A DNA stretch of 64,000 nt from Burkholderiales bacterium (GTDB lineage: Bacteria; Pseudomonadota; Gammaproteobacteria; Burkholderiales; Usitatibacteraceae). Below the pieces are notes generated by a model. The model searched no databases. It saw nothing but the letters and a program-made list of their open reading frames with translations, and was not told the origin of the DNA. Shown here piece after piece: positions 2-12,945 of the stretch (positions within the stretch are counted from its first letter, which is position 1; each line of letters begins with the position of its first letter). The position numbers were made by a program, and so were the translations under genes. The DNA lies in contig JAHCLE010000001.1 of the NCBI GenBank assembly GCA_026125445.1, forward strand, positions 1-64,000, in the 5' to 3' direction.

Positions 2-1159
2 GCGACCGTGACCGAGGTGCTCTCCGAGTCGAGCCAGCGCGTGAGCCCGCGCTGTCCCTGGTTCGGCACCTGCGGCGGTTGCGCCATGCAGCACGTGGAT
101 GCCGCGGCGCAGGTGGCCGCCAAGCAGCGCGTGCTGGAGGACAACCTCGCGAGGATCGGCAAGGTCGTCCCGGAGTCGGTCCTTCCGCCCATCCATGGCC
201 CGACCTGGGGCTATCGCCACCGCGCGCGCCTGTCGGTGCACTTCGTGGCCAAGAAGGGCGGGGTGCTGGTGGGCTTCCACGAGAGGAAGTCGAGCTACGT
301 GGCCGACGTGCGCTCGTGCGAGGTGCTGCCGCCGGCCATCTCGCGCCTCATCGTGCCGCTGCGCGAACTCTTCACGACAATGGCGCTGCGCGAGCGGCTG
401 CCGCAGGTGGAGCTCGCCGTGGGCGAGTCGGTCACCGTACTCGTGCTGCGGAACCTCGAGCCGCTGGGCGAGGAGGACCGCACGAAGCTGCGCGCCTTCG
501 CGGATCGCCACGGCATCCAGTGGTGGCTGCAGCCCAAGGGGCCGGACACGGCGCACCCCTTCCACCCGGAATCGGCGCCGGCGCTCGACTACCGCCTGCC
601 GGAATTCGGGCTCTCGATCGGCTTCGGGCCCACGGAGTTCACGCAGGTGAACGCGGCCGTGAACCGCGTGCTGGTCAAGCGCGCCGTGGACCTCCTCGAT
701 CCGCGCCCGGGTGAACGCGTCGGCGACCTTTTCTGCGGGTTGGGCAACTTCACGCTGGCGCTCGCCTCGCGCGGGGCCACGGTGGTGGGCATGGAAGGCC
801 TCGCCTCCCTCGTCGCCCGCGGCGAGGCCAACGCGCGCGCCAACGGGCTCGAGGGCCGCGCGAGCTTCATCGCCTACGACCTCTACACCGACGCGCCCGG
901 GGCGCTCGCGCGCCTGGGGCGCGTCGACAAGCTGCTGATCGATCCCCCGCGTGACGGCGCCGTGGAGATCTGCAAGGCGCTGCCGGAATCCGGCGCGCCC
1001 ACGCGCATCGTCTACGTCTCCTGCAGTCCCTCGACGCTGGCCCGCGACGCGGGCGTGCTGGTGAACGTGAAGGGCTACCGGCTGCTCGCCGCGGGCGTGG
1101 TCAACATGTTCCCGCACACGGGGCACGTTGAATCCATTGCGGTTTTCGCGCGCATATAG
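2..1159 (+). CDS. rlmD: 23S rRNA (uracil-1939-C5)-methyltransferase, 5' truncated by window
   Basis: SAM-dependent methylation of U1939 in 23S rRNA; cytoplasmic. The frame is open to the left edge, and the first visible residues look like the end of a TRAM domain, so the GTG at 8 is not the true start. The Fe-S cysteines are visible as C-x5-CGGC near residues 18-27, with a fourth Cys in VRSCEVLPP. The Rossmann SAM site is [15 protein letters not shown], followed by LIDPPRDGA. The catalytic Cys is in [12 protein letters not shown]. The C-terminus is complete. RlmD is preferred over RlmC/TrmA because of the iron-sulfur motif and the TRAM remnant, but the subfamily call is by recognition only. 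Confidence 0.9.
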
Positions 1160-1178
1160 GCAAGGACTTATTAGAAGA

Positions 1179-1223
1179 ATCTCGATCATTGATTGGACGC
1201 TCCGGAAGGCGGATTCCTAGAAT
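1179..1223 (+). promoter_or_regulatory. Predicted LysR operator plus -10 box (copy 1)
   Basis: The block ATCTCGATCATTGATTGGA (1179-1197) contains a T-N11-A LysR-type dyad. A conserved CGGAA stretch follows, then TTCC-TAGAAT, with the -10-like TAGAAT at 1218-1223. The same block at the same spacing (39 nt from motif start to -10) lies at 5184-5228 before the porin. It would drive the gene at 1282 and the SulP transporter after it. Confidence 0.6.
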
Positions 1224-1281
1224 TCGCCCACATGCGGGCCGTGTCCGCCGACGCGCGCCCCTTCCAACCAGGAGGCAGTCC

Positions 1282-1920
1282 ATGAACGACGTGTTTGCGA
1301 AGAACCGGGCGACGACGGCGGAGGAAGCGGCGAAGATCGTCCCGCGGGCGGAGTTCCGGGTCTTCGGCCAGGGCGTGATCGACACGGTGCGCGCGCACAT
1401 GTACAACGGCCGCACGGTCCTGCAGGCGGCCCGCCGCATGCCCGCCGAGACGTACTTCCTCTCGGTCAACACGAACGAGGCCAACGTGAAGGTCCGCGAC
1501 GGCCTGCTCGACATCAAGACCAAGGTGGGAGAGACGCCGGAAGGCTACGAGATCTTCCAGCCGCGGGGGAAGTTCCAGTTTCCCGTGAGCCGCGCCGACC
1601 TCGCCACGATCCTCGGGCACCTCAAGGCGGACATGAAGCTCGACAAGGACTCGTACGCCATCGGCGAGTTCATCGAGATGGCGCGCGCGCACCCGGCGCT
1701 GCGCGTGGTCACCGTCGAGAAGATGCGCTACGGCTTCACGATCGACGGAATCATCTGCGAGTACGCCCAGGTGTGGCTCAACGGCGCCCTCATCGAGACG
1801 GCCTGCGCCGAAAGCGAGAACTACGCGGGCATGAAGCAGGTGATCGAGGAGCTCGGCCTGTCGGAACTGCCGAACACGAACTACCTGCGCGCCGCCAAGC
1901 GCGTGGTGGGGCTGGCCTGA
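1282..1920 (+). CDS. CYTH-like (triphosphate-tunnel-fold) protein
   Basis: 212-residue cytoplasmic protein of unassigned function. The start is the ATG at 1282, which has a GGAGG ribosome site at 1271; an earlier in-frame start has none and would begin upstream of the predicted promoter. The strand pattern is CYTH-like. AEFRVFG stands where ExExK is expected. TYFLSVNTNEANVKVR resembles the YFDT...LRxR strand, LLDIKTKVG the T-x-K strand, and EKMRYGFTIDGIICEYAQV the K-x-R...D-x-v strand. Several acidic metal ligands differ from catalytic CYTH enzymes, so hydrolysis of a triphosphate is not assured. The SulP gene follows after 28 bases, so the two are probably co-transcribed. The family call is inference from the pattern. 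Confidence 0.5.
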   Translation: MNDVFAKNRATTAEEAAKIVPRAEFRVFGQGVIDTVRAHMYNGRTVLQAARRMPAETYFLSVNTNEANVKVRDGLLDIKTKVGETPEGYEIFQPRGKFQFPVSRADLATILGHLKADMKLDKDSYAIGEFIEMARAHPALRVVTVEKMRYGFTIDGIICEYAQVWLNGALIETACAESENYAGMKQVIEELGLSELPNTNYLRAAKRVVGLA

Positions 1921-1948
1921 GCCGGCGGCCGGCCGGCCGTGGGAGCGC

Positions 1949-4198
1949 GTGGTCGTGAACACGAGGGAGGCGGGCTGGCGGCTGCCTGAGACGGTCGCGC
2001 GCTGGCTCGTCGCGCCCCGGCGCGGCGACGTCTGGGGCGGCCTCGCGGCGATGCTCGTCGCGCTGCCGGCCGCCATCGGCTTCGGCGTGGCCGTATTCGC
2101 CGCGCTCGGACCGGGCTTCGCCGCCCACGGAGCCCTCGCGGGCATCGTCGGCACCGTCGTCATCGGGATACTCGCCTCGAGCCTCGGCGGCACCGACCGC
2201 CTCATCAGCGCGCCGTGCGCCCCGGCGGCCGCGGTGCTGTCCGCCTTCGCCCTGGAGATGGCCGGTCGCGGGGACGACCCGCACGTGATCGTCCTCATGC
2301 TCGTGATGGTGGGCGTGCTGGCCGGCCTCATCCAGGTCCTCTTGGGCATGGCCGGCGTCGGCGGGCTGATCAAGTACATCCCGTATCCCGTGGTGAGCGG
2401 CTACCTCACGGGGGTCGGGCTCATCATCATCGCGAGCCAGTTGCCGAAGCTGCTGGGCGTGCCCGACGGCACCGGGCTGTGGGCGAGCCTGGGCAGTCCC
2501 TCGCGGTGGGACCCTCGAGCGATCGCCATCGGCACGGTGACGGCCGGCGTCATGGTCGCCTCCGCCCAGGCGAACCTGCGGGTGCCCGGCACGCTGCTCG
2601 GCATCGCCGCGGGCGCGCTCGTGTACTTCGCCCTGGCGATCGTCGACCCCGGCCTGCGCGTCCTCGCGGACAACGACCTCGTTCTCGGTCCCCTCGGCGC
2701 CTCGGGGGCGGGCTTCCTCGAGTCGTTCGTCGAGCGCTGGGGCGCCATCGGCCGCATGGGAGGCGCGCACGTCGCGGGGCTCGCGGGCAGCGCGGTCACC
2801 CTGGCCGCGCTGCTGTCGATCGACACGCTCAAGACCTGCGTCGTGCTCGACAAGCTCACGCGCGCGCGGCACGACTCGGACCGCGAGCTGATCGCGCAGG
2901 GCATCGCCAACGTCGCCTCGTCGGCCTGCGGCGGAATCTCGGGCGCGGGCACGATGGGCGCCACGCTCGTGGGCCTGAACAGCGGCGCGCAGTCCCGGGC
3001 CACCGGGATGATGCAGGGCGTCTTCGCGCTCGCCGCCGCGGTGGTCCTGGGCGCCTTCGTGGCCTGGATCCCGGTGGCGACGCTGGCCGGCATCCTGGTG
3101 GCGATCGGGTTCCGCATGATCGACCGGGAGCCGCTGCGCTTCCTGGGCTCGCGCGCCACCACCCTCGACTTCCTCGTGGTCGCCGCGGTGGTGGTCGTCG
3201 CGGTCTCCGTGGGCCTCATCGCGGCCTCCGCGGTGGGCGTGGGCCTCGCCATGGTCCTCTTCGTGCGCGAGCAGAGCGGCGGCAGCGTCGTGCGCCACAA
3301 GCTCGAGCTGGGCGAGGCGCCCTCGACCTGGCACCGCCCGGAGGCGGAGCTGGAGGCGCTGTCGCGGAAGTCGTCCCAGGCGGTGATCTTCGAGCTCCAG
3401 GGCACGCTCTTCTTCGGCAATACCTACCAGCTCTACGTGGACCTGGAGCACGAGATCCGCACGCGGCGCTTCGTGATCCTCGACCTGAAGCGCGTGCGCT
3501 CGATCGACGTGACCGCCGCGCAGGTGTTCGCCCAGGTGCGCGACGCGATCGAGGAGCGGGGCGCCCGCCTGGTCATCTGCGGGGCGAGCGGCGGACGGCA
3601 GGACGCCGCGCGCATGCGCAGCCTCCTGGCGCAGATGGGCCTGCTCGCGCCGGACAGCAAGTCGGTTCGTGTCTACCCGGACCTGGACGGGGCCATCGCG
3701 TACGTGGAGGACCGCCTGCTGCGGGAGAGCGAGTTCACCCCGTCCGACGAGGCCCCGATGGAGCTGCGCGAGATCGAGCTCTTCGCCGGCTACCGCGAGG
3801 AGACGCTCGCCGACCTCGAGGCGGCGATGAAGGTCCGTCACTACGTGGCGGGCGAGACCATCTACGCGCGCGGCTCTCCGGGCGACGAGCTGTACTGGGT
3901 GCGCAAGGGCGCCGTGCGCCTCGTGGCCTCCCTGGGCGACAAGGGGCATCGTGCCGTGGCCGGATTCGGGCGCGGCGACTACTTCGGCGGGCTCGCGTTC
4001 CTCGACAACGAGCCGCGGCCGAACGAGGCCGTCGCGGTGGCGCCGACCGAGGTCTACGTCCTCACGCGAGGCGACTTCGAGCAGATCGCGCTCAAGCACC
4101 GCACGCTCGCGTTCAACCTCGCCTCGGCGATGGCGCGCACGCTCGCGCGCCGGCTGCGCAGGACGCAGCTGCAGCTGGCGACGCTCCAGGAATCCTGA
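1949..4198 (+). CDS. SulP anion transporter fused to STAS and cyclic-nucleotide-binding domains
   Basis: Inner-membrane transporter of the SulP/SLC26 family (sulfate, bicarbonate or similar anions). Residues about 25-430 form the hydrophobic transport core, with the SulP stretch SIDTLKTCVVLDKLTRAR and GGISGAGTMGATLVGLNSGA. A STAS domain follows at about 455-570 (VILDLKRVRSIDVTAAQ). A cNMP-type beta-roll lies at about 610-735, with FGGLAFLDNEPRPNEAVA in place of the phosphate-binding cassette. The usual FGE and R-x-A residues are altered there, so cAMP binding may be lost. It starts at a GTG 28 bases after the preceding gene; another GTG lies 6 bases on. The substrate is unknown. Confidence 0.88.
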   Translation: MVVNTREAGWRLPETVARWLVAPRRGDVWGGLAAMLVALPAAIGFGVAVFAALGPGFAAHGALAGIVGTVVIGILASSLGGTDRLISAPCAPAAAVLSAFALEMAGRGDDPHVIVLMLVMVGVLAGLIQVLLGMAGVGGLIKYIPYPVVSGYLTGVGLIIIASQLPKLLGVPDGTGLWASLGSPSRWDPRAIAIGTVTAGVMVASAQANLRVPGTLLGIAAGALVYFALAIVDPGLRVLADNDLVLGPLGASGAGFLESFVERWGAIGRMGGAHVAGLAGSAVTLAALLSIDTLKTCVVLDKLTRARHDSDRELIAQGIANVASSACGGISGAGTMGATLVGLNSGAQSRATGMMQGVFALAAAVVLGAFVAWIPVATLAGILVAIGFRMIDREPLRFLGSRATTLDFLVVAAVVVVAVSVGLIAASAVGVGLAMVLFVREQSGGSVVRHKLELGEAPSTWHRPEAELEALSRKSSQAVIFELQGTLFFGNTYQLYVDLEHEIRTRRFVILDLKRVRSIDVTAAQVFAQVRDAIEERGARLVICGASGGRQDAARMRSLLAQMGLLAPDSKSVRVYPDLDGAIAYVEDRLLRESEFTPSDEAPMELREIELFAGYREETLADLEAAMKVRHYVAGETIYARGSPGDELYWVRKGAVRLVASLGDKGHRAVAGFGRGDYFGGLAFLDNEPRPNEAVAVAPTEVYVLTRGDFEQIALKHRTLAFNLASAMARTLARRLRRTQLQLATLQES

Positions 4199-4209
4199 GG
4201 GGAGGCCGG

Positions 4210-5130
4210 TCAGCGAACGCCCGCGACGGCGCGGGCGGCGCCCTGCAGGTCCCGGTTCACGAAGCCGATGAAGGCCTCGGTCGCCTTGGAGAAGGGCTTG
4301 CCGTGGTGCCAGCACAGGAAGATCTGGCGCTCGAGCTTGAGTCCCCGCACCTTCACGGCGCGAAGCCTGCCGTCCTCGAGCTCGTGGGACACGGCGAGGC
4401 GCGAGACGAAGGAGATGCCGAGCCCCGCCTCCACGGCGCGCTTCACCGCCCCGATGTTGCCCAGCTCCATGACGGACTCGGGGGCGATGCCGGCGGCGGA
4501 GAGCTGCTCCATCAGGCTCTCGGCGCTGGCCGAGTCGCGGCGCGGGAGCGCGAAGGGCATCTGCCTGAGGCTCTCGGGCCGCACGCTCCTCATCTGCGCG
4601 AACACGTGGTTCGAGGGCACGATGAGCAGGAGCTCGTCGCGCAGGACGGGCTTCACGGCGATGCGCTCGTCGCGGATGGGCGAGCCCTCGCCCACGATGG
4701 CCACGTCGAGCGCGCCCTCGACGAGCATCTCGATGACGCGGCGGGCCGGCTCGACGCGCACGTCGATCTCGACGCCGGGATGCAGCCCGCGGAAGCGGGC
4801 GAGGAGCTCGGGCAGCAGGTAGCTGCCGACGACCTGGCTCGCGCCGATCGCCACCCGGCCCGCGCGCAGCTCGCGAAGGTCGATGAGCTCGGTCTGCAGC
4901 CGCGCCACGCGCCCGAGGATCTCCTCGGCCGCCGCGAGGGCCACCCGGCCCGACTCCGAGAGCGAGATCTTCTTGCCCACGCGGTCGAAGAGCTTGACCT
5001 TGAGGGCGTCCTCGAGCGCGACCACCTGCGCGCTGACGGCAGGCTGCGTGAGGTGCAGCTTCTCCGCGGCGCGCGAGAAGCTGTTGAGCGTGGCCACCGC
5101 GCAGAAGGTGCGCAGCTGGGCGAGCGTCAT
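4210..5130 (-). CDS. LysR-family transcriptional regulator
   Basis: 306-residue LTTR. The N-terminal winged helix spans residues 1-60 (TLAQLRTFCAVATLNSFSRAAEKLHLTQPAVSAQVVALE), and the rest is the co-inducer domain (GASQVVGSYLLPELLARFRG). The ATG at 5130 is chosen; a GTG one codon earlier is possible. It is transcribed divergently from the porin operon and converges on the SulP gene, with 11 bases between stops. The intergenic region holds a T-N11-A site that is repeated upstream of the other operon. The simplest reading is that this protein regulates both operons and itself. It resembles CbbR/CysB-like LTTRs in general form, but no specific ligand can be named. Confidence 0.88.
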   Translation of the reverse strand: MTLAQLRTFCAVATLNSFSRAAEKLHLTQPAVSAQVVALEDALKVKLFDRVGKKISLSESGRVALAAAEEILGRVARLQTELIDLRELRAGRVAIGASQVVGSYLLPELLARFRGLHPGVEIDVRVEPARRVIEMLVEGALDVAIVGEGSPIRDERIAVKPVLRDELLLIVPSNHVFAQMRSVRPESLRQMPFALPRRDSASAESLMEQLSAAGIAPESVMELGNIGAVKRAVEAGLGISFVSRLAVSHELEDGRLRAVKVRGLKLERQIFLCWHHGKPFSKATEAFIGFVNRDLQGAARAVAGVR

Positions 5131-5183
5131 CACGGAGAATCCGCGGCCGGGCGTTCATTCATAGGGAAAACATTATATGACCG

Positions 5184-5228
5184 ATCTCGAGGTTTGATTG
5201 GATTCGGAAAAGGGGGAATTCCTAGAAT
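5184..5228 (+). promoter_or_regulatory. Predicted LysR operator plus -10 box (copy 2)
   Basis: ATCTCGAGGTTTGATTGGA (5184-5202) followed by CGGAA, a G-rich stretch, TTCC and TAGAAT (5223-5228). It matches copy 1 at 1179-1223 with the same 39-nt spacing. It lies between the divergent LysR gene and the porin, the classical position of an LTTR activation and autoregulation site. Confidence 0.65.
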
Positions 5229-5276
5229 GAGTCCACGAAATTCCGACCCCAGAAAAGCCCCTTCAAGGAGATCACG

Positions 5277-6557
5277 ATGTCCACGCCCCTCGAATTCCGC
5301 GCCAAGCTGCTCGCGACGCTGGTCTGCGCCGCCCTCGGCGGGACCCTGCTGCCCGCGACCGCCTCGGCCGCCGAAGCCGACCTGATCCAGAAGATCGAAG
5401 CGCTGCAGAAGGAGATCGACGCCCTCAAGGCGCAGGTGCAGAAGGTTCAGGCCGAGCAGAAGAAGGCCCCGGCCGCGGCGCCGGCCGCCGGCGCGCCGGT
5501 CCAGCAGGCCGAAGTGGAAGGCTGGCGCAAGTACTTCTCCGCCGTGCCCACCGGGGAGGCCCCCGCCACCAGCGCCCGCACGGGCATCACGATCTACGGG
5601 CGCGCCGACCTCGGCTACGAAAGCAACGACGACGGCGTGGTGCGCCGCAAGGTCCTGAACAGCTACTCCTCGCGGATCGGCTTCAAGGGCACGCGGGTCC
5701 TGTCGGACGACCTGACCGGCATCATCCAGGTCGAGACCGGGATCGCTCCGGACGACAACGCCAACAGCGGCACGTGGGGCAGCCGCGAGACCTACGCGGG
5801 CCTGCGCAGCAAGTCGATGGGCACGATCAAGGCGGGCAAGCACGACTCCCCGTTCAAGGATCTCGAGGGCGAGAGCGCGCCGATGTGGGGCAACGGCGAG
5901 ATCATGGAGGTGATCATCCACGGCAAGGGAACGTCGCGCGCCGCGGGCTCCAGCTGGGCGAACTTCCACACCCGATACACCAACGTGGTGCAGTACGAGA
6001 CCCCGAAGTTCTCCGGCCTCCAGGGCAAGATCGCCTACAGCACCGACGAGGTGAACGGCGCCGCGGGCACGGTCAAGAAGCCCTCCTATGCCGCCTCGGC
6101 CGACTGGCAGGGCGGCGGCTGGTACGCCGGCCTCGCCTACCAGAACACGGAGAACTTCAACGGCATGGGCAACGACCTCACGGGCGTGAAGGCCGCCGGG
6201 AGCTGGGAGACCAAGAGCTACTCGCTGGGCGCCCAGTGGAGCCGCATCGACAACTCCACCGGCAAGAAGACCAACAACTGGCTGGCCTCCGGCGTCTACA
6301 AGTTCAGCCCGTGGGCGCTCAAGGCGAGCTATGGCGCCTCGAGCGAGACCGCGAGCGGCGCCAACGACGGGCTCGCCATGATGGCGCTCGAACTCGACTA
6401 CAACATCGACAAGCACACCGCGATCTACGGGTACTACACGAAGATCAAGAACGACCCGAACGCGCGCGGCCGCTTCGAGGCGGGCGAGAACACCTACACG
6501 CCGGTCGCGGGGCAGGATCCCTCGATCTTCGCGATCGCCATCCGCTACAACTTCTGA
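5277..6557 (+). CDS. Gram-negative trimeric porin (Neisseria/Burkholderia type)
   Basis: 426-residue outer-membrane channel. The start has AAGGAG at 5264. A signal peptide ends near ASAAEAD (about residue 32). A short coiled-coil/Ala-Pro linker at residues 33-80 is an unusual N-terminal extension for a general porin and could contact peptidoglycan or neighbouring subunits. The barrel begins at GITIYGRADLGYESN. Typical porin stretches SRIGFKGTRVLSDDLTGIIQVETG and a terminal aromatic residue (AIRYNF) for Bam-dependent insertion are present. It is first in the operon behind the LysR-type operator, so it probably admits the anionic substrates that the downstream enzymes and transporter handle. 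Confidence 0.9.
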   Translation: MSTPLEFRAKLLATLVCAALGGTLLPATASAAEADLIQKIEALQKEIDALKAQVQKVQAEQKKAPAAAPAAGAPVQQAEVEGWRKYFSAVPTGEAPATSARTGITIYGRADLGYESNDDGVVRRKVLNSYSSRIGFKGTRVLSDDLTGIIQVETGIAPDDNANSGTWGSRETYAGLRSKSMGTIKAGKHDSPFKDLEGESAPMWGNGEIMEVIIHGKGTSRAAGSSWANFHTRYTNVVQYETPKFSGLQGKIAYSTDEVNGAAGTVKKPSYAASADWQGGGWYAGLAYQNTENFNGMGNDLTGVKAAGSWETKSYSLGAQWSRIDNSTGKKTNNWLASGVYKFSPWALKASYGASSETASGANDGLAMMALELDYNIDKHTAIYGYYTKIKNDPNARGRFEAGENTYTPVAGQDPSIFAIAIRYNF

Positions 6558-6643
6558 GGCCCCCTGGCCGCCGGCCCGCTCCGGTCGAATACCGACCGGA
6601 GCGGGCGGGCCGGCGAGGGCCCCGCACGACTGGAGAAAGGCAC

Positions 6644-8485
6644 ATGGACATGAAACGGCTCGCCAGGATCGTCGCCAGCCTCGTGGCAGCGGCGTTCCTC
6701 GCCTCGCCCGCGCTCCCCGCGGCGGCGAAGGAGTCGCCCCGGGCGCTCTACGCCACCACCGCCGAGAGGTACCCGTCGCCGAAGCTGGCCGACGTGGAGG
6801 GGCGCGAGTACAAGATCCTCTTCGACCCGGCGAAGACCAGCGCCGAGATGCCCGCAGCGTTCGCGGACCTGTGGGGCAAGATCAAGGCTGCGGCCGCGAA
6901 GCAGGGCTTCAAGGTCACGGAAAAGGAGAAGAACCCCCTCGCGATCGAGTTCTCCACCAAGGAGTACTTCGACACGAAGGAGCAGGCCCTCTGGAACAAG
7001 GGCTACCTCATCCGCATCACCACGCGCTACAAGGACGGCAAGCCGGGCGAGACGGTGGCCGTCACCGTGAAGAGCGTGTTCGAGGACGCCGAGAAGACGC
7101 TCGCCGTCCCGCTCGCCGTCGTGGGCGTCGACAAGTCGAAGACCGAGGCCGAGGAGAACGTGGGCTTCGGGCCGGACGGGATGCTGCGCGGCTACGTGGA
7201 GAAGGGCTCCTCCTTCAGCGTCCCGCTCGCGGCGCTGGGCAAGTTCACGCTCGGCGACTTCGCGAAGTACCTGCCGGAACTCTCGAAGCTGGGGCTGCCG
7301 GCGGAAACGGCGCTCGTCTCCACGAAGGCGTACTCCTGGCGCGTGCGCCCCGGCGCCGTCGTGCTGCCGGGAACCGCTCCCTGCGGCATCTCCATGGAGG
7401 CCTGGGCCCGCACGCAGGACGGCAAGCCGTTCCTGTACGACTTCTCCTTCGGCTACAGCGACATCGACTTCTACGGCTCCCCGGACCTGCACGCCGCCGG
7501 CGAGCAGTTCATGGAGAAGGTGCTGAAGGGCGAGCTCGCCTCCCTCACGGCCGCCGACAGCGGCAAGTGGGGCGGCTCCAAGGTCCGGCAGATGATGGGC
7601 CGGGCGATCCCGGTCACCGCCGCCGCGCCTGCCGCGGCCGCGCCGAAGGCGGCTCCTGCCGCCCCCAAGGCCGATGCGAAGAAAGCGCCCGTGGCGTTCA
7701 TCACGTCGCCCACGCCCCCCGTCCACCCCATGGACGCGAAGTTCGGCGTCGCCTCGCCCCCCGCCTACATCAAGCACTACGAGGCGGACAAGGCCGGCAA
7801 GGTGCTCCTCAGCCCGTACCTGCAGGTGGCCTCGAAGGATTTTCCGGCGGTGCTCAGCGTCAAGGAAGCGCCCTACAACTGGGTCATCGACGCCGACGGC
7901 AACGTGGCGATCATGCCGGAGGCCGCCCACCCCTACGGGCGCACCTACCCGAACGGCTTCTTCCGGCCGGAGGACCAGTCGCAGCGCAAGCCCGGCACGC
8001 GCGAGAACTATGGCCACGTCTCCGCCCTCGGCGGCGCCCCCGGCCGCATCAGCGGCGAGATCCTCTACGACAAGGACACCAACACCTGGGTCCTCAACAA
8101 CAAGTCGGGCCGTTACACCAAGCACAACATCGACCGCACGCCCGAGCAGCTCGTGAACGCCGCGACGATGATCCGCGAGGTCGTGGATCCGGGCAAGACC
8201 GCCTGGGGCAGCGTGTTCTTCCTCCTCGAGTACTGCTCCGAGGAGATGCGCACGGCGCTGATGGGCACGGGCAAGGTGCAGTACGACGATCCGGCCAAGA
8301 AGTCGCGGCCCCACCTCGTGGTGATGGAAGGCGGGACGACCACCTTCAAGCCCGAGGAAATGCCGAAGGTCGCGGCGCCGGCGCCCGCCAAGGCCGCCGC
8401 GCCCGCCGCCGGCGAGGCCGCTCCCGCCGCCAAGCCCGCCAAGGCCAAGAAGGCCAAGGCCGCGCAGAACGACGACCCGTCCTGA
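6644..8485 (+). CDS. Exported two-domain protein: CYTH-like domain plus uncharacterised C-terminal domain
   Basis: 613 residues with a signal peptide (cleavage near ALPAAAKES), so periplasmic or secreted. The start is ATG 6644, two codons before a second possible Met. Residues about 45-310 look CYTH-like: EYFDTKEQALWNKGYLIRIT matches the YFDT...LRIR strand, followed by VAVTVKSVFED. An Ala/Pro/Lys linker (about 325-355) leads to a second domain with NWVIDADGNVAIMPEA, GHVSALGGAPGRISGEILYD and NNKSGRYT. From memory this resembles a GH-S...AGE...SGHY module seen in some secreted or polymorphic-toxin proteins. The tail is an Ala/Lys-rich low-complexity stretch. It sits between porin and pyrophosphatase. 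The biochemical function is unknown. Confidence 0.6.
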   Translation: MDMKRLARIVASLVAAAFLASPALPAAAKESPRALYATTAERYPSPKLADVEGREYKILFDPAKTSAEMPAAFADLWGKIKAAAAKQGFKVTEKEKNPLAIEFSTKEYFDTKEQALWNKGYLIRITTRYKDGKPGETVAVTVKSVFEDAEKTLAVPLAVVGVDKSKTEAEENVGFGPDGMLRGYVEKGSSFSVPLAALGKFTLGDFAKYLPELSKLGLPAETALVSTKAYSWRVRPGAVVLPGTAPCGISMEAWARTQDGKPFLYDFSFGYSDIDFYGSPDLHAAGEQFMEKVLKGELASLTAADSGKWGGSKVRQMMGRAIPVTAAAPAAAAPKAAPAAPKADAKKAPVAFITSPTPPVHPMDAKFGVASPPAYIKHYEADKAGKVLLSPYLQVASKDFPAVLSVKEAPYNWVIDADGNVAIMPEAAHPYGRTYPNGFFRPEDQSQRKPGTRENYGHVSALGGAPGRISGEILYDKDTNTWVLNNKSGRYTKHNIDRTPEQLVNAATMIREVVDPGKTAWGSVFFLLEYCSEEMRTALMGTGKVQYDDPAKKSRPHLVVMEGGTTTFKPEEMPKVAAPAPAKAAAPAAGEAAPAAKPAKAKKAKAAQNDDPS

Positions 8486-8511
8486 GCTCCGGAAGAATCG
8501 AGGAAACGCAC

Positions 8512-9282
8512 ATGAACGCCAAACGAGTCGCACTCCAGGCCTGCATCGCCCTCGCCCTGGGCTGGGCCCTGGCCCCGGCGCCCGCGGTCGCGCAGGACCT
8601 CACCACGCCGCACGTCTCCGTCATCCGCGGCGAGAAGAACTACTGGTCCGGCATCGACCCCATCAACCGCGACGGCACCTACAACGTCGTCGTCGAGATC
8701 CCCGCCGGCACGACGGCCAAGTACGAGACGAACAAGGACACCGGGATGCTCGAGCTCGAGCAGAAGAACGGTGCGCCGCGCTTCGTCCAGTACCTGGGCT
8801 ACCCGGCCAACTACGGCGCGATCCCGCGCTCGGTGATGCTCAAGAGCAAGGGCGGCGACGGCGACAGCGTCGACGTGATCCTGCTCGGGCCGGCGGTGCC
8901 GCGCGGCGCCGTCGTTCGCGGGCGCGTCATCGGCCTGCTGAGCCTCGTGGACACCGGCGAGACGGACGACAAGGCCGTCGTCGTCATGGAGAACACGCCC
9001 TTCGCCAAGGTGAAGAGCATCCCGGACCTGGAGGCGAAGTTCCCCGGCGTCACGACCATCCTGCAGACCTGGTTCACCTCCTACAAGGGCTACGGCAAGG
9101 ACGGCAAGCTGATGCTCTCCTCCAACGGGTTCAAGGACCGCGTGGCGGCGATCAAGCTGATCGGCGACGCGATCCTGGACTTCGAGATGTCGTCGGTGAC
9201 CGAGGCGGACAAGCGCCCGCTCGACCCGAAGGGCAACCCGTACCTCTACCGTCACCCCGCCGCCAAGAACATCGGCGAATAG
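8512..9282 (+). CDS. ppa: Exported family I inorganic pyrophosphatase
   Basis: 256 residues. PPi + H2O gives 2 Pi. Unlike housekeeping PPases it carries a signal peptide (cleavage near APAVAQDL), so it should act in the periplasm. Family I motifs are visible: EIPAGTTAKYE, YPANYGAIPRS and GDGDSVDVILLG. The signature D-x-D-P-x-D has Ser in place of Pro, but the three acidic metal ligands are kept. The lysine/tyrosine region near YKGYGKDGK is less standard. It lies 26 bases after the CYTH-like exported protein, which supports a joint role in handling phosphoanhydrides outside the cytoplasm. Confidence 0.85.
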   Translation: MNAKRVALQACIALALGWALAPAPAVAQDLTTPHVSVIRGEKNYWSGIDPINRDGTYNVVVEIPAGTTAKYETNKDTGMLELEQKNGAPRFVQYLGYPANYGAIPRSVMLKSKGGDGDSVDVILLGPAVPRGAVVRGRVIGLLSLVDTGETDDKAVVVMENTPFAKVKSIPDLEAKFPGVTTILQTWFTSYKGYGKDGKLMLSSNGFKDRVAAIKLIGDAILDFEMSSVTEADKRPLDPKGNPYLYRHPAAKNIGE

Positions 9283-9314
9283 GACCCCCGGCCCTCCCAA
9301 ACGGGGGGAGCGGC

Positions 9315-9359
9315 TTCCGTGCGCGCGCCCGCGGGTGGCTCCCGGGCGCGCGCACGGAA
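9315..9359. repeat. 17-bp perfect hairpin inside the operon
   Basis: Arms 9315-9331 and 9343-9359 are perfect reverse complements (TTCCGTGCGCGCGCCCG) around an 11-nt loop. There is no T-run after it, so it is not a classical terminator. It lies between the pyrophosphatase stop and the next CYTH gene and could protect the upstream mRNA or lower expression of the downstream genes. Confidence 0.7.
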
Positions 9360-9416
9360 AGTCCGCGCGCCGCGCTCTGGCGGGCAGGAAACCCGAGACG
9401 AAAGGAAAGAGAACCC

Positions 9417-9890
9417 ATGGGCAAGGAAATCGAGCGCAAGTACGTCGTGGACACGTCCGCCTGGAAGGCGAAGGACGCCGGCACGCACTTCAAGCAGGGC
9501 TACCTCAACAGCCAGAAGGAGCGCGTGGTGCGCGTGCGCATCGAGGGCGATCGCGCCAAGCTCACCATCAAGGGCCCGAGCGTGGGCGTGACCCGCTCGG
9601 AGTTCGAGTACGCGATCCCCGTCGACGACGCCGCGCTGCTCCTCGACAACCTCTGCGAGCAGCCCCTCATCGACAAGCACCGCCACAAGGAGGTGCACGG
9701 CGGAAAGACCTGGGAGATCGACGTCTTCCACGGCGACAACGAGGGCCTGGTCGTCGCGGAGATCGAGCTCGCGAGCGAGGACGAGAAGTTCGAGGCGCCG
9801 GCATGGGCGGTTCGCGAGGTATCCTCGGATCCGCGATACTTCAACTCCAACCTGCTGAAGAACCCCTACCGGAACTGGCCGAAGGGCTGA
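9417..9890 (+). CDS. Short CYTH-domain protein, probable inorganic triphosphatase
   Basis: 157-residue single-domain CYTH protein with no signal peptide, so cytoplasmic. It keeps the catalytic ExExK signature (EIERKYVV, residues 4-11), paired basic residues VVRVRIEGDRAKLTIKG, and later acidic ligands EIDVFHGDNEGLVVAEIELASE. Length and motifs match the NeuTTM type (Nitrosomonas europaea), a tripolyphosphate-specific hydrolase. The substrate here is therefore likely PPPi, though thiamine triphosphate or a cyclase activity cannot be ruled out. The next gene starts 10 bases downstream. Confidence 0.87.
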   Translation: MGKEIERKYVVDTSAWKAKDAGTHFKQGYLNSQKERVVRVRIEGDRAKLTIKGPSVGVTRSEFEYAIPVDDAALLLDNLCEQPLIDKHRHKEVHGGKTWEIDVFHGDNEGLVVAEIELASEDEKFEAPAWAVREVSSDPRYFNSNLLKNPYRNWPKG

Positions 9891-9900
9891 ACCGACCCGC

Positions 9901-11472
9901 ATGTCCGCCGACGGAGCCGCCCAAACCCACGCCCAGAGCCAGAAGCTCCTCGAGCTCCTGGGCATGGAGCGCATGTCGCTCTCGTCGAAGCCGCGCGAGG
10001 CCCAGGACTCGACCGAGAAGTGGATGCGCTACCTCGGGTTTCCCGGGGGCATCCTGCTCTTCCTGCTGATCCTGTACCTGCCGCCGGGCGCGGGGCTGAG
10101 CGCCTCCGCCCAGGCGGGCGCGGCCTGCTTCGCGCTGGCGCTGGTGTGGTGGGTGACGGAGCCGTTCCCGACCTACGTCACGTCGCTGGTCCTCATGTTC
10201 CTGCTGCTCGTCACGCGGGTGGCGAACGACAAGACGATCATGTACGTGCTGGGCATGGACGTGATCTGGCTCAACCTGCTCGCCTTCATCCTGAGCTCCA
10301 TGCTGGTGAAGGTGCGCCTCGCCAAGCGCATGGCGCTGTGGCTCATCCTGCGCTTCGGGAAGAACGCCTCGCACGCGCTCCTCGCCTTCCTCATCCTGCA
10401 CATGGCGCTCGCGCCGCTCATCCCCGCCACGGCGGCGCGCGCGGTGATGACGCTGCCCCTGATGGTGGTCGTCGCCGCGATCTACGGCGCCACCGAGGAC
10501 AGCAACAACAACTTCGGCCGCAACCTGCTGCTGCTCAACCTGTGCGGCATCTCGATCCTGTCCTCGATGACGATGACGGGATCGGCCGCCAACCTCATCG
10601 CCGTCGGCATGATCCAGACCATGGCCGACCAGCGCGTCTACTACGTGGACTGGGTGAAGGTGGGCACGCCCATCGCCGTGACCACCATGTTCGTCATGTG
10701 GTGGGTCGGCCAGAAGGTGATCTTCCGCATCCCGAAGGACGAGCGCGTGCCGCAGCTCGAGGGGGGGCTCGGGCTCGTGAAGGACCAGTACGAGGCCCTC
10801 GGGCCGCTCACGAAGCCGGAGAAGAAGGCCATCGCGATCTTCTCGCTGGTGCTGGCCCTCTGGATGACCGACATCTTCCACATGGAGTGGTTCGGCGTGG
10901 AGATCAGCGCGCCCTTCGCGGCGCTGCTGGGCGCGGTGATCGTGCTCTTCCCGCGCTACGGCGTCCTGCAATGGTCGGAGGCGGAAATCCCGTGGCACCT
11001 GCTCATCTTCAGCGCGGGCGCCTACGCCGGCGGACTCGCCCTGGACGACACGGGCGCGGCGGCCTGGGGCGTGAAGGTGCTGTTCGGCAGCTTCGACCTG
11101 AAGAGCGTGCCCTTCGGCGTGGCCTACACGATCGTGATCGCCGTGATGATGTACAGCCACCTGCTCACGACCTCGAAGACGGTGCGCACGCTGATCATGC
11201 TGCCCATCATCATCACGCTGGCGAAGTCCCTGGGCTGGAATCCGATCTCGTTCGCGCTGCCGGCGGCGCTGTGCATCGACTGGGTGGTGGGACTGCCCAT
11301 CAGCGGCAAGCCCAACGTGATCCTCTTCTCCACCAACCAGTACTCGGTAGGCGACAACTTCCGGTACGGCATCACTGCCTGCACCGTGGGCGTCGTCCTG
11401 CTCGTGCTCTCGGCGATGACCTGGTTCCACTGGATCGGCCTCACGCCGGCCTTCTGGGCGACGGCGCCATGA
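9901..11472 (+). CDS. DASS/SLC13-family sodium-coupled anion transporter
   Basis: 523-residue inner-membrane protein with a hydrophilic N-terminus of about 45 residues and about a dozen hydrophobic segments. Features of the divalent-anion:sodium symporter family include WWVTEPFPTYVTSL near the start, the conserved FILSSMLVK...NASHALLAF region, and SGKPNVILFSTNQYSVGDNF near the C-terminus. Known members carry sulfate, phosphate-like or dicarboxylate anions. Context (pyrophosphatase, triphosphatase, SulP) favours an inorganic oxyanion, but this is inference. Its TGA overlaps the ATG of the next gene. Confidence 0.87.
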   Translation: MSADGAAQTHAQSQKLLELLGMERMSLSSKPREAQDSTEKWMRYLGFPGGILLFLLILYLPPGAGLSASAQAGAACFALALVWWVTEPFPTYVTSLVLMFLLLVTRVANDKTIMYVLGMDVIWLNLLAFILSSMLVKVRLAKRMALWLILRFGKNASHALLAFLILHMALAPLIPATAARAVMTLPLMVVVAAIYGATEDSNNNFGRNLLLLNLCGISILSSMTMTGSAANLIAVGMIQTMADQRVYYVDWVKVGTPIAVTTMFVMWWVGQKVIFRIPKDERVPQLEGGLGLVKDQYEALGPLTKPEKKAIAIFSLVLALWMTDIFHMEWFGVEISAPFAALLGAVIVLFPRYGVLQWSEAEIPWHLLIFSAGAYAGGLALDDTGAAAWGVKVLFGSFDLKSVPFGVAYTIVIAVMMYSHLLTTSKTVRTLIMLPIIITLAKSLGWNPISFALPAALCIDWVVGLPISGKPNVILFSTNQYSVGDNFRYGITACTVGVVLLVLSAMTWFHWIGLTPAFWATAP

Positions 11473-12191
11473 GGTCCCTCGCCATCCTCGTCCTCGCGCT
11501 CGCCTGCGGCGCGGCACAGGCCCTGGAGATCCGCCGCTACGAGACGCGGATCGACGTCGACCGGGACGGCGCGGCGCTCGCCACGGCGTCGGTCGATCTC
11601 GCGGGGGCCGCGGCCGGGCGCTTCCGCCTGCCGGTGGGCTTCGCGAAGCTCGCCGATTTCCGTCCCGGGGAAGCGTCGCCGGGCGTGTCGTTGGCCGCGA
11701 AGGGCAACGCCGACGGCGCGTGGGTCGAGGTGGAGCTGCCGGACGGCGTGCCGTCCGAGACGACGCTGGGCTTCTCCTTCCGCGCCAACGGCGTGCTGTT
11801 CGTCCCGAAGCCCGAGGCGGGCCAGAAGGCGACCCTGCCGAAGGGCAGCCGCCTGCTGCGGCACCGCTTCGTGAACACGCAGGAGGCGCCCATCGCGCGC
11901 TACGCGGCCACGGTGCTCTTCCCGCCGGAAGTGATCGCGCACCGCGTCAACGAGCAGCTGCCCAGGCCGGGGCGCAAGGAGTTCGCCCCGCGCGTGGAGC
12001 TCGACCGCTTCGACGGGAGGCAGGGCGCGCGGCTGCAGCTCGCGAACCTGCGCCAGGGCGATCGCACCTCCATGGAGCTGGAGATCGTGGACGAGCGCCG
12101 CTCCGCCGTCTGGCTGCTGCTGCTCGTTCCCCTTGCGGCCGGCTACCTCTTCTTCTTCCGCGACCTCGTCCGGCCACCGCGGCCGTCGTGA
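11469..12191 (+). CDS. Exported membrane-anchored protein of unknown function
   Basis: 240 residues; family not recognised. The ATG overlaps the transporter stop (ATGA), showing translational coupling. It has a signal peptide (cleavage near AQALEIRRY), a beta-rich middle (residues 20-205) without obvious catalytic motifs, and one C-terminal hydrophobic helix (VWLLLLVPLAAGYLFFF) followed by a basic tail. The predicted topology puts the body in the periplasm and the tail in the cytoplasm. It is the last gene of the operon, before a terminator, and may be an accessory subunit of the DASS transporter. Confidence 0.7.
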   Translation: MRSLAILVLALACGAAQALEIRRYETRIDVDRDGAALATASVDLAGAAAGRFRLPVGFAKLADFRPGEASPGVSLAAKGNADGAWVEVELPDGVPSETTLGFSFRANGVLFVPKPEAGQKATLPKGSRLLRHRFVNTQEAPIARYAATVLFPPEVIAHRVNEQLPRPGRKEFAPRVELDRFDGRQGARLQLANLRQGDRTSMELEIVDERRSAVWLLLLVPLAAGYLFFFRDLVRPPRPS

Positions 12192-12206
12192 GGCCGCAGG
12201 ATGAAA

Positions 12207-12230
12207 AAGGGGCGGCCGAGGCCGCCCCTT
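12207..12230. terminator. Hairpin terminator between convergent genes
   Basis: Stem AAGGGGCGGC / GCCGCCCCTT with a CGAG loop. On the minus strand it is followed by a run of T (complement of the A-run at 12204-12208), so it ends the minus-strand gene at 12250 best and may also stop plus-strand transcripts. Confidence 0.8.
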
Positions 12231-12249
12231 GTCGCGAAGCGAGTGACGC

Positions 12250-12945
12250 TTATTCGCGATCGCCGCCGAAGATGCCCAGCAGGGCGAGCAGGTTCGCGAA
12301 GATGTTGTAGAGGTTCAGGTACACCGCGAGCGTGGCGGAGATGTAGTTGGTCTCGCCGCCGGTGACGATGCGGTTCAGGTCATAGAGCAGGAAGGCGGAG
12401 AAGATGCCCACCGCGATGACCGAGATCGCGACCATGAGCGCCGGCATCTGCAGGAAGATGTTCGCGAAGGCGGCCACCAGCAGCATGATCATGCCGATGA
12501 AGAGCGCCTTGCCCATCCCGGAGAGGTCGCGCTTGGTCGTGCTGGCGATGGAGGCCATCACGGCGAAGATGACCGCCGTGCCGCCGCCCGCCAGCCCGAT
12601 GAGGGCCGCGCCGTTCCTGAAGCCCAGCACCACGCCGATCATGCGCGAGAGCATGAGGCCCATGAAGAACGTGAAGGCGAGCAGGATCGCCACCCCCCAG
12701 GCGCTGTTCTTCGTCTTCTCGATGGCGAACATGAAGCCGAAGGCGATCGCGAGGAAGGCGATGAAGCCGATGGCGGGGCTCGCCTGGAAGAAGCTGAAGC
12801 TCGTCTGCACGCCGATCCAGGCGCCGAGCACCGTGGGCACGAGCGAGAGGGCGAGCAGGGCGTAGGTGTTGCGCAGTACCCGGTTCTGCGCCAACGCGAT
12901 CGTCTGCGAGGGCGAGGCGGGCGTCATCATCGGGACTTGGGACAT
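12250..12945 (-). CDS. Bax inhibitor-1/YccA family inner-membrane protein
   Basis: 231 residues with seven predicted hydrophobic segments from residue about 30. The family pattern is visible in RNTYALLALSLVPTVLGAW, FMGLMLSRMIGVVLG and the C-terminal acidic stretch LYDLNRIVTGGETNYISATLAVYLNLYNIFANLL. Family members (YbhL, YccA) are pH-sensitive calcium-leak channels or FtsH modulators. It is monocistronic. A possible promoter on the minus strand reads TTGAAA-16-TACTCT, and a CGGTC-N6-GACCG inverted repeat at 12975-12990 may be an operator. Confidence 0.9.
   Translation of the reverse strand: MSQVPMMTPASPSQTIALAQNRVLRNTYALLALSLVPTVLGAWIGVQTSFSFFQASPAIGFIAFLAIAFGFMFAIEKTKNSAWGVAILLAFTFFMGLMLSRMIGVVLGFRNGAALIGLAGGGTAVIFAVMASIASTTKRDLSGMGKALFIGMIMLLVAAFANIFLQMPALMVAISVIAVGIFSAFLLYDLNRIVTGGETNYISATLAVYLNLYNIFANLLALLGIFGGDRE

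Follow-up and report, generated by a model that had tools for sequence, protein, structure and literature searches.

Among the proteins of the CYTH family, the triphosphate tunnel metalloenzymes (TTM), NeuTTM and Escherichia coli YgiF are inorganic tripolyphosphatases (PMC8615392). Uptake of phosphate compounds is known from other components, such as the OprP/OprO porins of the Pseudomonas aeruginosa Pho regulon, of which OprO is pyrophosphate-specific (PMC9769906), and the low-affinity phosphate uptake operons in which DUF47 accompanies PiT. In the DASS family, cotransporters (VcINDY) are characterized by Ser-Asn-Thr motifs, while in the exchangers (LaINDY) basic residues replace the sodium ions (PMC7553777). 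How bacteria gain access to or import exogenous polyphosphate (polyP) has been described as unknown, and the growth of the archaeon Haloferax volcanii on exogenous polyP poses the same physiological problem, with neither the import route nor the gene identified (PMC13318637). No island like the one treated here has been described for that organism. It occupies about 11 kb and nine genes near the start of contig JAHCLE010000001.1 of a Burkholderiales bacterium (Usitatibacteraceae, assembly GCA_026125445.1), of which positions 1 to 64,000 of the forward strand were analyzed and are called the window. The island is probably an acquisition system for phosphate from pyrophosphate (PPi), tripolyphosphate (PPPi) and probably short polyP. 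In the papers searched we found no description of a cluster that joins CYTH proteins with a porin, a pyrophosphatase (PPase) and transporters, nor of an exported tunnel protein or a fusion of the P1 protein discussed below to Ppx-GppA. Proteins without a family name are designated by the first position of their gene.

The association of the genes strongly indicates that hydrolysis of phosphoanhydrides is the theme of the island, and this reading is supported by fold, neighborhood and fusion. The clearest member is the CYTH protein 9417, which scores 61.3 bits against a Pfam cut-off of 23.2 and has the NeuTTM structures (NE1496, 3typ/2fbl) as its closest relatives in the PDB (E 1e-12). The catalytic ExExK motif is intact as EIERK, and E4, E6, R36, R39, R41, K52, E62, E64, K87, R89, D102, E115 and E117 are invariant over 19 aligned cassette sequences. 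By sequence, 9417 is an ordinary CYTH protein, and as a relative of the tripolyphosphatases NeuTTM and YgiF it is predicted to have the same activity. The exported family I PPase 8512 scores 107.8 bits against a PF00719 cut-off of 23.5 and matches PPases in the PDB (E 1e-19). Two related loci add a second exported PPase of the manganese-dependent family II (DHH): in Rhodocyclaceae (L012) its gene comes next after that of the exported family I enzyme and the protein scores above the NCBIfam cut-off, and in Desulfovibrio (L016) it lies close to it. The export of two unrelated PPases from one cluster points to PPi outside the cytoplasm.

The first-pass annotation had proposed two further CYTH-like proteins, P1 (1282) and the N-terminal half of 6644, and structure models bear this out for both. 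The AlphaFold model of P1 has a pLDDT of 92, and its best PDB matches are CYTH/TTM enzymes, namely thiamine triphosphatase, AtTTM3, YgiF and Sulfolobus TTM (Foldseek E 1e-6). Structural alignments with TTM enzymes give Z scores of about 9-12.6, with the highest values for 1yem (Z 12.6, root-mean-square deviation (rmsd) 3.5 over 150) and thiamine triphosphatase 5a64 (Z 12.2 over 176). P1 is thus modeled with a tunnel fold; it matches no Pfam family at E<=1, CYTH included, and only one weak, irrelevant NCBIfam model. The domain at about residues 49-323 of 6644, for which pLDDT is mostly above 90, likewise matches TTM enzymes (Foldseek E 3e-7), with Z 12.3 for 6yp4 (rmsd 3.9 over 192), 11.7 for AtTTM3 and 11.4 for YgiF. 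It too is predicted to have the tunnel fold, and sequence profiles give no significant link to CYTH structures. The models therefore indicate two tunnel-fold families that Pfam and NCBI models do not recognize. Both differ from NeuTTM and YgiF in the ExExK motif, which is replaced by R22-x-E24-x-R26 in P1 and by G53-x-E55-x-K57 in 6644, as placed by the alignment and structural-match offsets (alignment ranges, not superposed coordinates). The first Glu is missing in both, whose second Glu is kept and whose third position is basic. The invariant charged residues are E24, R26, K79 and E177 in P1, and E55, K57, K106, R124, K143, K187 and E252 in the 6644 domain, with E55 and K57 conserved in all 15 aligned sequences.

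P1 occurs fused to a Ppx-GppA exopolyphosphatase domain (E 1e-46 to 1e-53) in L052, in L105 and on a Cupriavidus plasmid; in L052 and L105 a second CYTH protein adjoins the fusion. Such fusions, together with the absence of the first Glu in both proteins, the Lys-rich tail of 6644 and the presence in relatives of DUF47 as a PhoU-like partner of PiT, also speak for the main rival explanation. In this explanation neither P1 nor the exported tunnel protein is catalytic; both would sense PPi or polyP and control uptake by PiT or DASS, as part of a module for phosphate-status sensing and polyP homeostasis. We consider this rather unlikely, although it is the alternative to be taken most seriously: the exported PPases and the intact CYTH protein argue for bulk hydrolysis, and charged residues of P1, among them K79, E24 and E177, are invariant.

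The second half of 6644 consists of an Ala/Pro/Lys linker, a conserved C-terminal domain at about residues 363-565 with 60-odd positions invariant among relatives, and the Lys-rich tail, ending in NDDPS. In most relatives the N- and C-terminal parts are encoded by two tandem, separate exported genes, and 6644 is a fusion of two exported proteins. The C-terminal domain (window 7721-8482) gave a low-confidence model, and it was barely probed by the fold search since the list was filled by N-domain matches. A weak similarity to the XopV/AopV type III effectors lies far below the model cut-off and was rejected. The NDDPS tail is nearly invariant across phyla. The gene for the C-terminal part in L017 bears an extra exported segment that appears CYTH-like by eye only, as does an exported protein without a Pfam match (L101:13640-14464) in the gammaproteobacterial version of the operon.

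The neighborhood recurs in several phyla. A search for 6644 in genomes of 84,980 species returned 16 loci (counts here and below are of loci, uncorrected for relatedness) from Holophagaceae/Geothrix and other Acidobacteriota, with one from Rhodocyclaceae and three of Desulfovibrio type. Near these loci, identities to the island proteins are 34-76% for the PPase, 60-82% for CYTH, 34-77% for DASS and 72-79% for P1. An exported PPase stands beside the independently found 6644-type genes in 15 of the 16 loci, the last of which ends at a contig edge. An independent search for P1 found 17 carriers among 297 Acidobacteriota, with CYTH and a phosphate-selective O/P porin in the same cluster in 14, DASS in 13 and DUF47-PiT in seven; of the other three, one has a P1-Ppx fusion beside a weakly matching CYTH gene and two are the P1 hits with the poorest scores. 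The operon order is porin-P1-CYTH-DASS-DUF47-PiT in L056, L059 and L060, and L057 has the same genes with CYTH, DASS and P1 rearranged. Six other carriers were found in 398 Pseudomonadota genomes. One, a gammaproteobacterium, combines DASS, P1, CYTH, O/P porin, DUF47 and PiT. In three others P1 is accompanied by CYTH, which in L103 is followed by an ApaH-like phosphoesterase. A fifth encodes a P1-Ppx fusion adjacent to CYTH, and the sixth gave a weak P1 match with no partner genes. Such clusters, in seven Acidobacteriota and one gammaproteobacterium, differ from the known DUF47-PiT operons in joining this pair to porin, P1, CYTH and DASS, whereas the window lacks DUF47-PiT. A Citrobacter freundii plasmid (NZ_CP026058) carries LysR-CYTH-P1-SLC13. 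This cassette (L022:11475-15760) sits on a mobilizable plasmid and includes a 491-aa protein without a family match; E. coli genomes gave no near match to it.

Two of the refuting conditions named with the first-pass annotation, a neighborhood without conservation and models that lack the tunnel fold, were checked and did not occur. The neighborhood is kept across phyla, but the majority of loci are from Acidobacteriota, carriers are not Betaproteobacteria generally, and P1 and 6644 were not found in 60 genomes of the same genus and family, apart from one very weak and unconvincing 6644 match. Among 369 genomes of the class, 6644 was found in its own genome only. In five genomes of the same genus (G001, G002, G004, G005 and G006) rlmD and yccA are adjacent, with gaps of about 65-270 bp, and the same adjacency is seen in further genomes of the family and order. 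In the present genome (3.67 Mb, 469 contigs) about 11 kb parts the two genes, and the block is an insertion between genes that adjoin in relatives. A terminator-like hairpin before yccA, conserved in relatives, is retained at about 12204-12230, as judged by folding and flank comparison. Inspection by eye and a repeat scan revealed no mobile-element gene, integrase or matching end repeats at the borders, and the G+C content of the island (69%) is near that of the host (67%). Horizontal acquisition is the best reading, and forms part of the phosphate acquisition explanation.

Pfam-level CYTH genes number only two in the entire host genome. Because of this, the insertion as a block and the neighborhood kept across phyla, the grouping exceeds chance. 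The exact gene order of the window was not found elsewhere, as might be expected if unrelated genes had come together by accident, but recurrence of the set in several phyla, often with another order and other transporters, makes such an accident exceedingly improbable.

CYTH, P1 and PPase are retained between versions that differ in their transporters (DASS, SulP, TauE-like, PiT). The cassette DASS proteins that were aligned go down to about 35% identity, and every one of them reads Ser-Lys-Thr in hairpin 2, with TGSxANL in hairpin 1. Although they belong to the same PF00939 family as VcINDY and LaINDY, the two Ser-Asn-Thr motifs of the sodium cotransporters were not found in them, and Ser-Lys-Thr is absent from all 27 further DASS-like sequences compared, which came from relatives and include the remaining DASS proteins of this genome. 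Since basic residues replace sodium in the exchangers, a lysine at this place would fit exchange or a substrate of higher negative charge. The porin also differs between versions: a PF07396 phosphate-selective O/P porin, of the same family as OprP and OprO, stands in most relatives in the place of the Porin_4 protein of the window. Compared to OprP/OprO, the island adds CYTH proteins and exported PPases, and no Pst or PhoBR components were recognized in it. SulP and LysR are not core components. Together with the Porin_4 porin they are local variants, and only L012 shares part of them, with a 66% identical SulP next to P1 and the N-terminal part of a 72% identical LysR at its edge. In the Holophagaceae loci a homolog of 11469 (38-45% identical) comes after DASS, and these loci are flanked by a histidine kinase/response regulator pair.

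The SulP and DASS families classically carry sulfate and di- and tricarboxylates, and SulP is fixed in two loci. The island could accordingly import another oxyanion or carboxylate, such as sulfate, arsenate or citrate, with the tunnel proteins and PPases merely clearing PPi and PPPi formed in its metabolism. This is unlikely, as no catabolic or sulfur-assimilation enzyme was recognized in the versions read, the versions exchange their transporters but keep CYTH, P1 and PPase, the export of two unrelated PPases would be needless for cytoplasmic metabolism, and the cassette DASS lacks the Ser-Asn-Thr motif.

With gene content, folds, the classical CYTH motif, the insertion, the conserved neighborhood, the fusion and the second exported PPase of relatives as observations, we infer substrate, transport direction, enzyme activities and regulation as follows. 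Anions would cross the outer membrane by the porin, the operon of which would be switched by LysR. Phosphoanhydride bonds would be cut in the periplasm by the exported PPase and perhaps also by the tunnel protein 6644. Phosphate (Pi), and possibly intact PPi or PPPi, would then cross the inner membrane via DASS, or via SulP in this island and PiT in others. PPPi that enters intact would be hydrolyzed in the cytoplasm by the classical CYTH protein. P1, which in other genomes is joined to an exopolyphosphatase domain, may handle or bind condensed phosphate. The exported PPases suggest that much is cut outside, and the cytoplasmic CYTH and P1 that some enters; import of PPi or PPPi is the least certain step. 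Independent signs of the substrate are the P1-Ppx-GppA fusions, the PF07396 porin, PHO4/PiT, DUF47 and the second exported PPase of relatives, and the Ser-Lys-Thr of the aligned cassette DASS proteins. The first-pass annotation had sketched a similar route from porin entry to cytoplasmic hydrolysis. Its phosphoanhydride theme gains support from the folds, the conserved neighborhood and these signs, while SulP and LysR drop out of the core.

A bolder possibility, which we regard as quite unlikely, is that DASS with Ser-Lys-Thr imports intact PPi or PPPi in exchange for Pi, with hydrolysis inside by CYTH and P1. This would be the first defined import route for condensed phosphate and could let the cell retain anhydride bond energy. 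It is less probable still that condensed phosphate entering in this way serves as an energy source. The lysine in hairpin 2 of DASS would be consistent with it, by analogy with the basic residues of the exchangers (PMC7553777), but exported PPases would waste the energy. A membrane PPase is encoded in 15 of 16 cassette genomes tested, with one Desulfovibrio carrier lacking it; its presence in 196 of 199 Acidobacteriota generally means that there is no enrichment, and this argument was dropped. In Geothrix a membrane PPase gene lies about 8 kb from the cassette (L009:1-2184 with G428:C31:361096-363222); in G430, the other Holophagaceae genome checked, it is unlinked.

Several points weigh against phosphate acquisition from condensed phosphates. 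The loci counted were partly picked by the search itself. The P1 profile detects no CYTH structure by sequence, and profile comparison of P1 with CYTH is weak, without a significant sequence link. Without the first Glu of ExExK, P1 and the 6644 domain may bind and not cut their ligand. Di- and tricarboxylates are the usual substrates of DASS proteins, the porin of the window gave no PF07396 match and so falls outside the phosphate-selective family, and SulP is seldom in the set, with a full-length copy in only one other locus. If phosphate acquisition is nevertheless correct, the island would give a function to orphan genes in Acidobacteriota, Desulfovibrio and Betaproteobacteria and represent a phosphorus-acquisition trait spreading as an island. 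The island, the compact porin-P1-CYTH-DASS-DUF47-PiT operon and the two unannotated tunnel-fold families provide named candidate genes for polyP uptake.

Table 1. Features of the island and its flanks (window positions) and of related loci (positions prefixed by locus).
Feature	Position	Strand	Basis or remark
Inserted island, ~11 kb, rlmD-like to yccA	1160-12252	.	rlmD/yccA adjacency in relatives
rlmD-like 23S rRNA methyltransferase, left flank	8-1159		
P1, predicted cytoplasmic CYTH/TTM-fold protein	1282-1920	+	AlphaFold model; R22-x-E24-x-R26 in place of ExExK
SulP-family anion transporter with STAS and cyclic-nucleotide-binding domains	1949-4198	+	Pfam PF00916+PF01740+PF00027
LysR-type regulator, divergent from porin operon	4210-5133	-	Pfam
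Outer-membrane porin, first gene of second operon	5277-6557	+	Porin_4, E 3e-39
Strong hairpin, porin/6644 intergenic	~6558-6625	+	-60 kcal/mol folding 6555-6630
6644, exported two-domain fusion	6644-8485	+	Signal peptide, CYTH/TTM-fold domain (model), linker, C-domain, tail
Exported family I inorganic pyrophosphatase	8512-9282	+	PF00719 E 5.7e-31; signal peptide; DGDSVDV motif
Perfect 17-bp inverted repeat, pyrophosphatase/CYTH intergenic	9315-9359	+	-51 kcal/mol folding 9300-9370
Classical CYTH, cytoplasmic, NeuTTM-like	9417-9890	+	PF01928 E 1.3e-16
DASS/SLC13-family transporter	9901-11472	+	PF00939 E 6e-61; Ser-Lys-Thr in second hairpin motif
Exported protein, C-terminal membrane helix	11469-12191	+	No family match; 4-bp overlap with DASS
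yccA, right flank	12250-12945	-	
P1-Ppx-GppA exopolyphosphatase fusions	L052:7955-9469, L105:5816-7354, L023:8019-9512		
Exported family II (DHH, manganese) pyrophosphatases	L012:12831-13853, L016:4830-5861		

Gene calls and Pfam agree with the earlier placement of the exported PPase, porin, SulP, DASS and LysR genes (Table 1), and the Pfam scan yielded no match for 1282, 6644 and 11469. Spacing is operon-like, with 28 bp between P1 and SulP, 26 bp between 6644 and the PPase, 10 bp between CYTH and DASS, and an overlap of 4 bp between DASS and 11469. A simple scan gave no clear T-N11-A dyad as a LysR site, and a promoter and terminator scan gave results at chance level. The two very stable hairpins within the porin operon may tune expression of the genes downstream. 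Beside P1 in Holophagaceae cassettes lie one or two DUF4010 membrane proteins (L011:18141-19487, L014:19503-20789, L015, L063 and L064).

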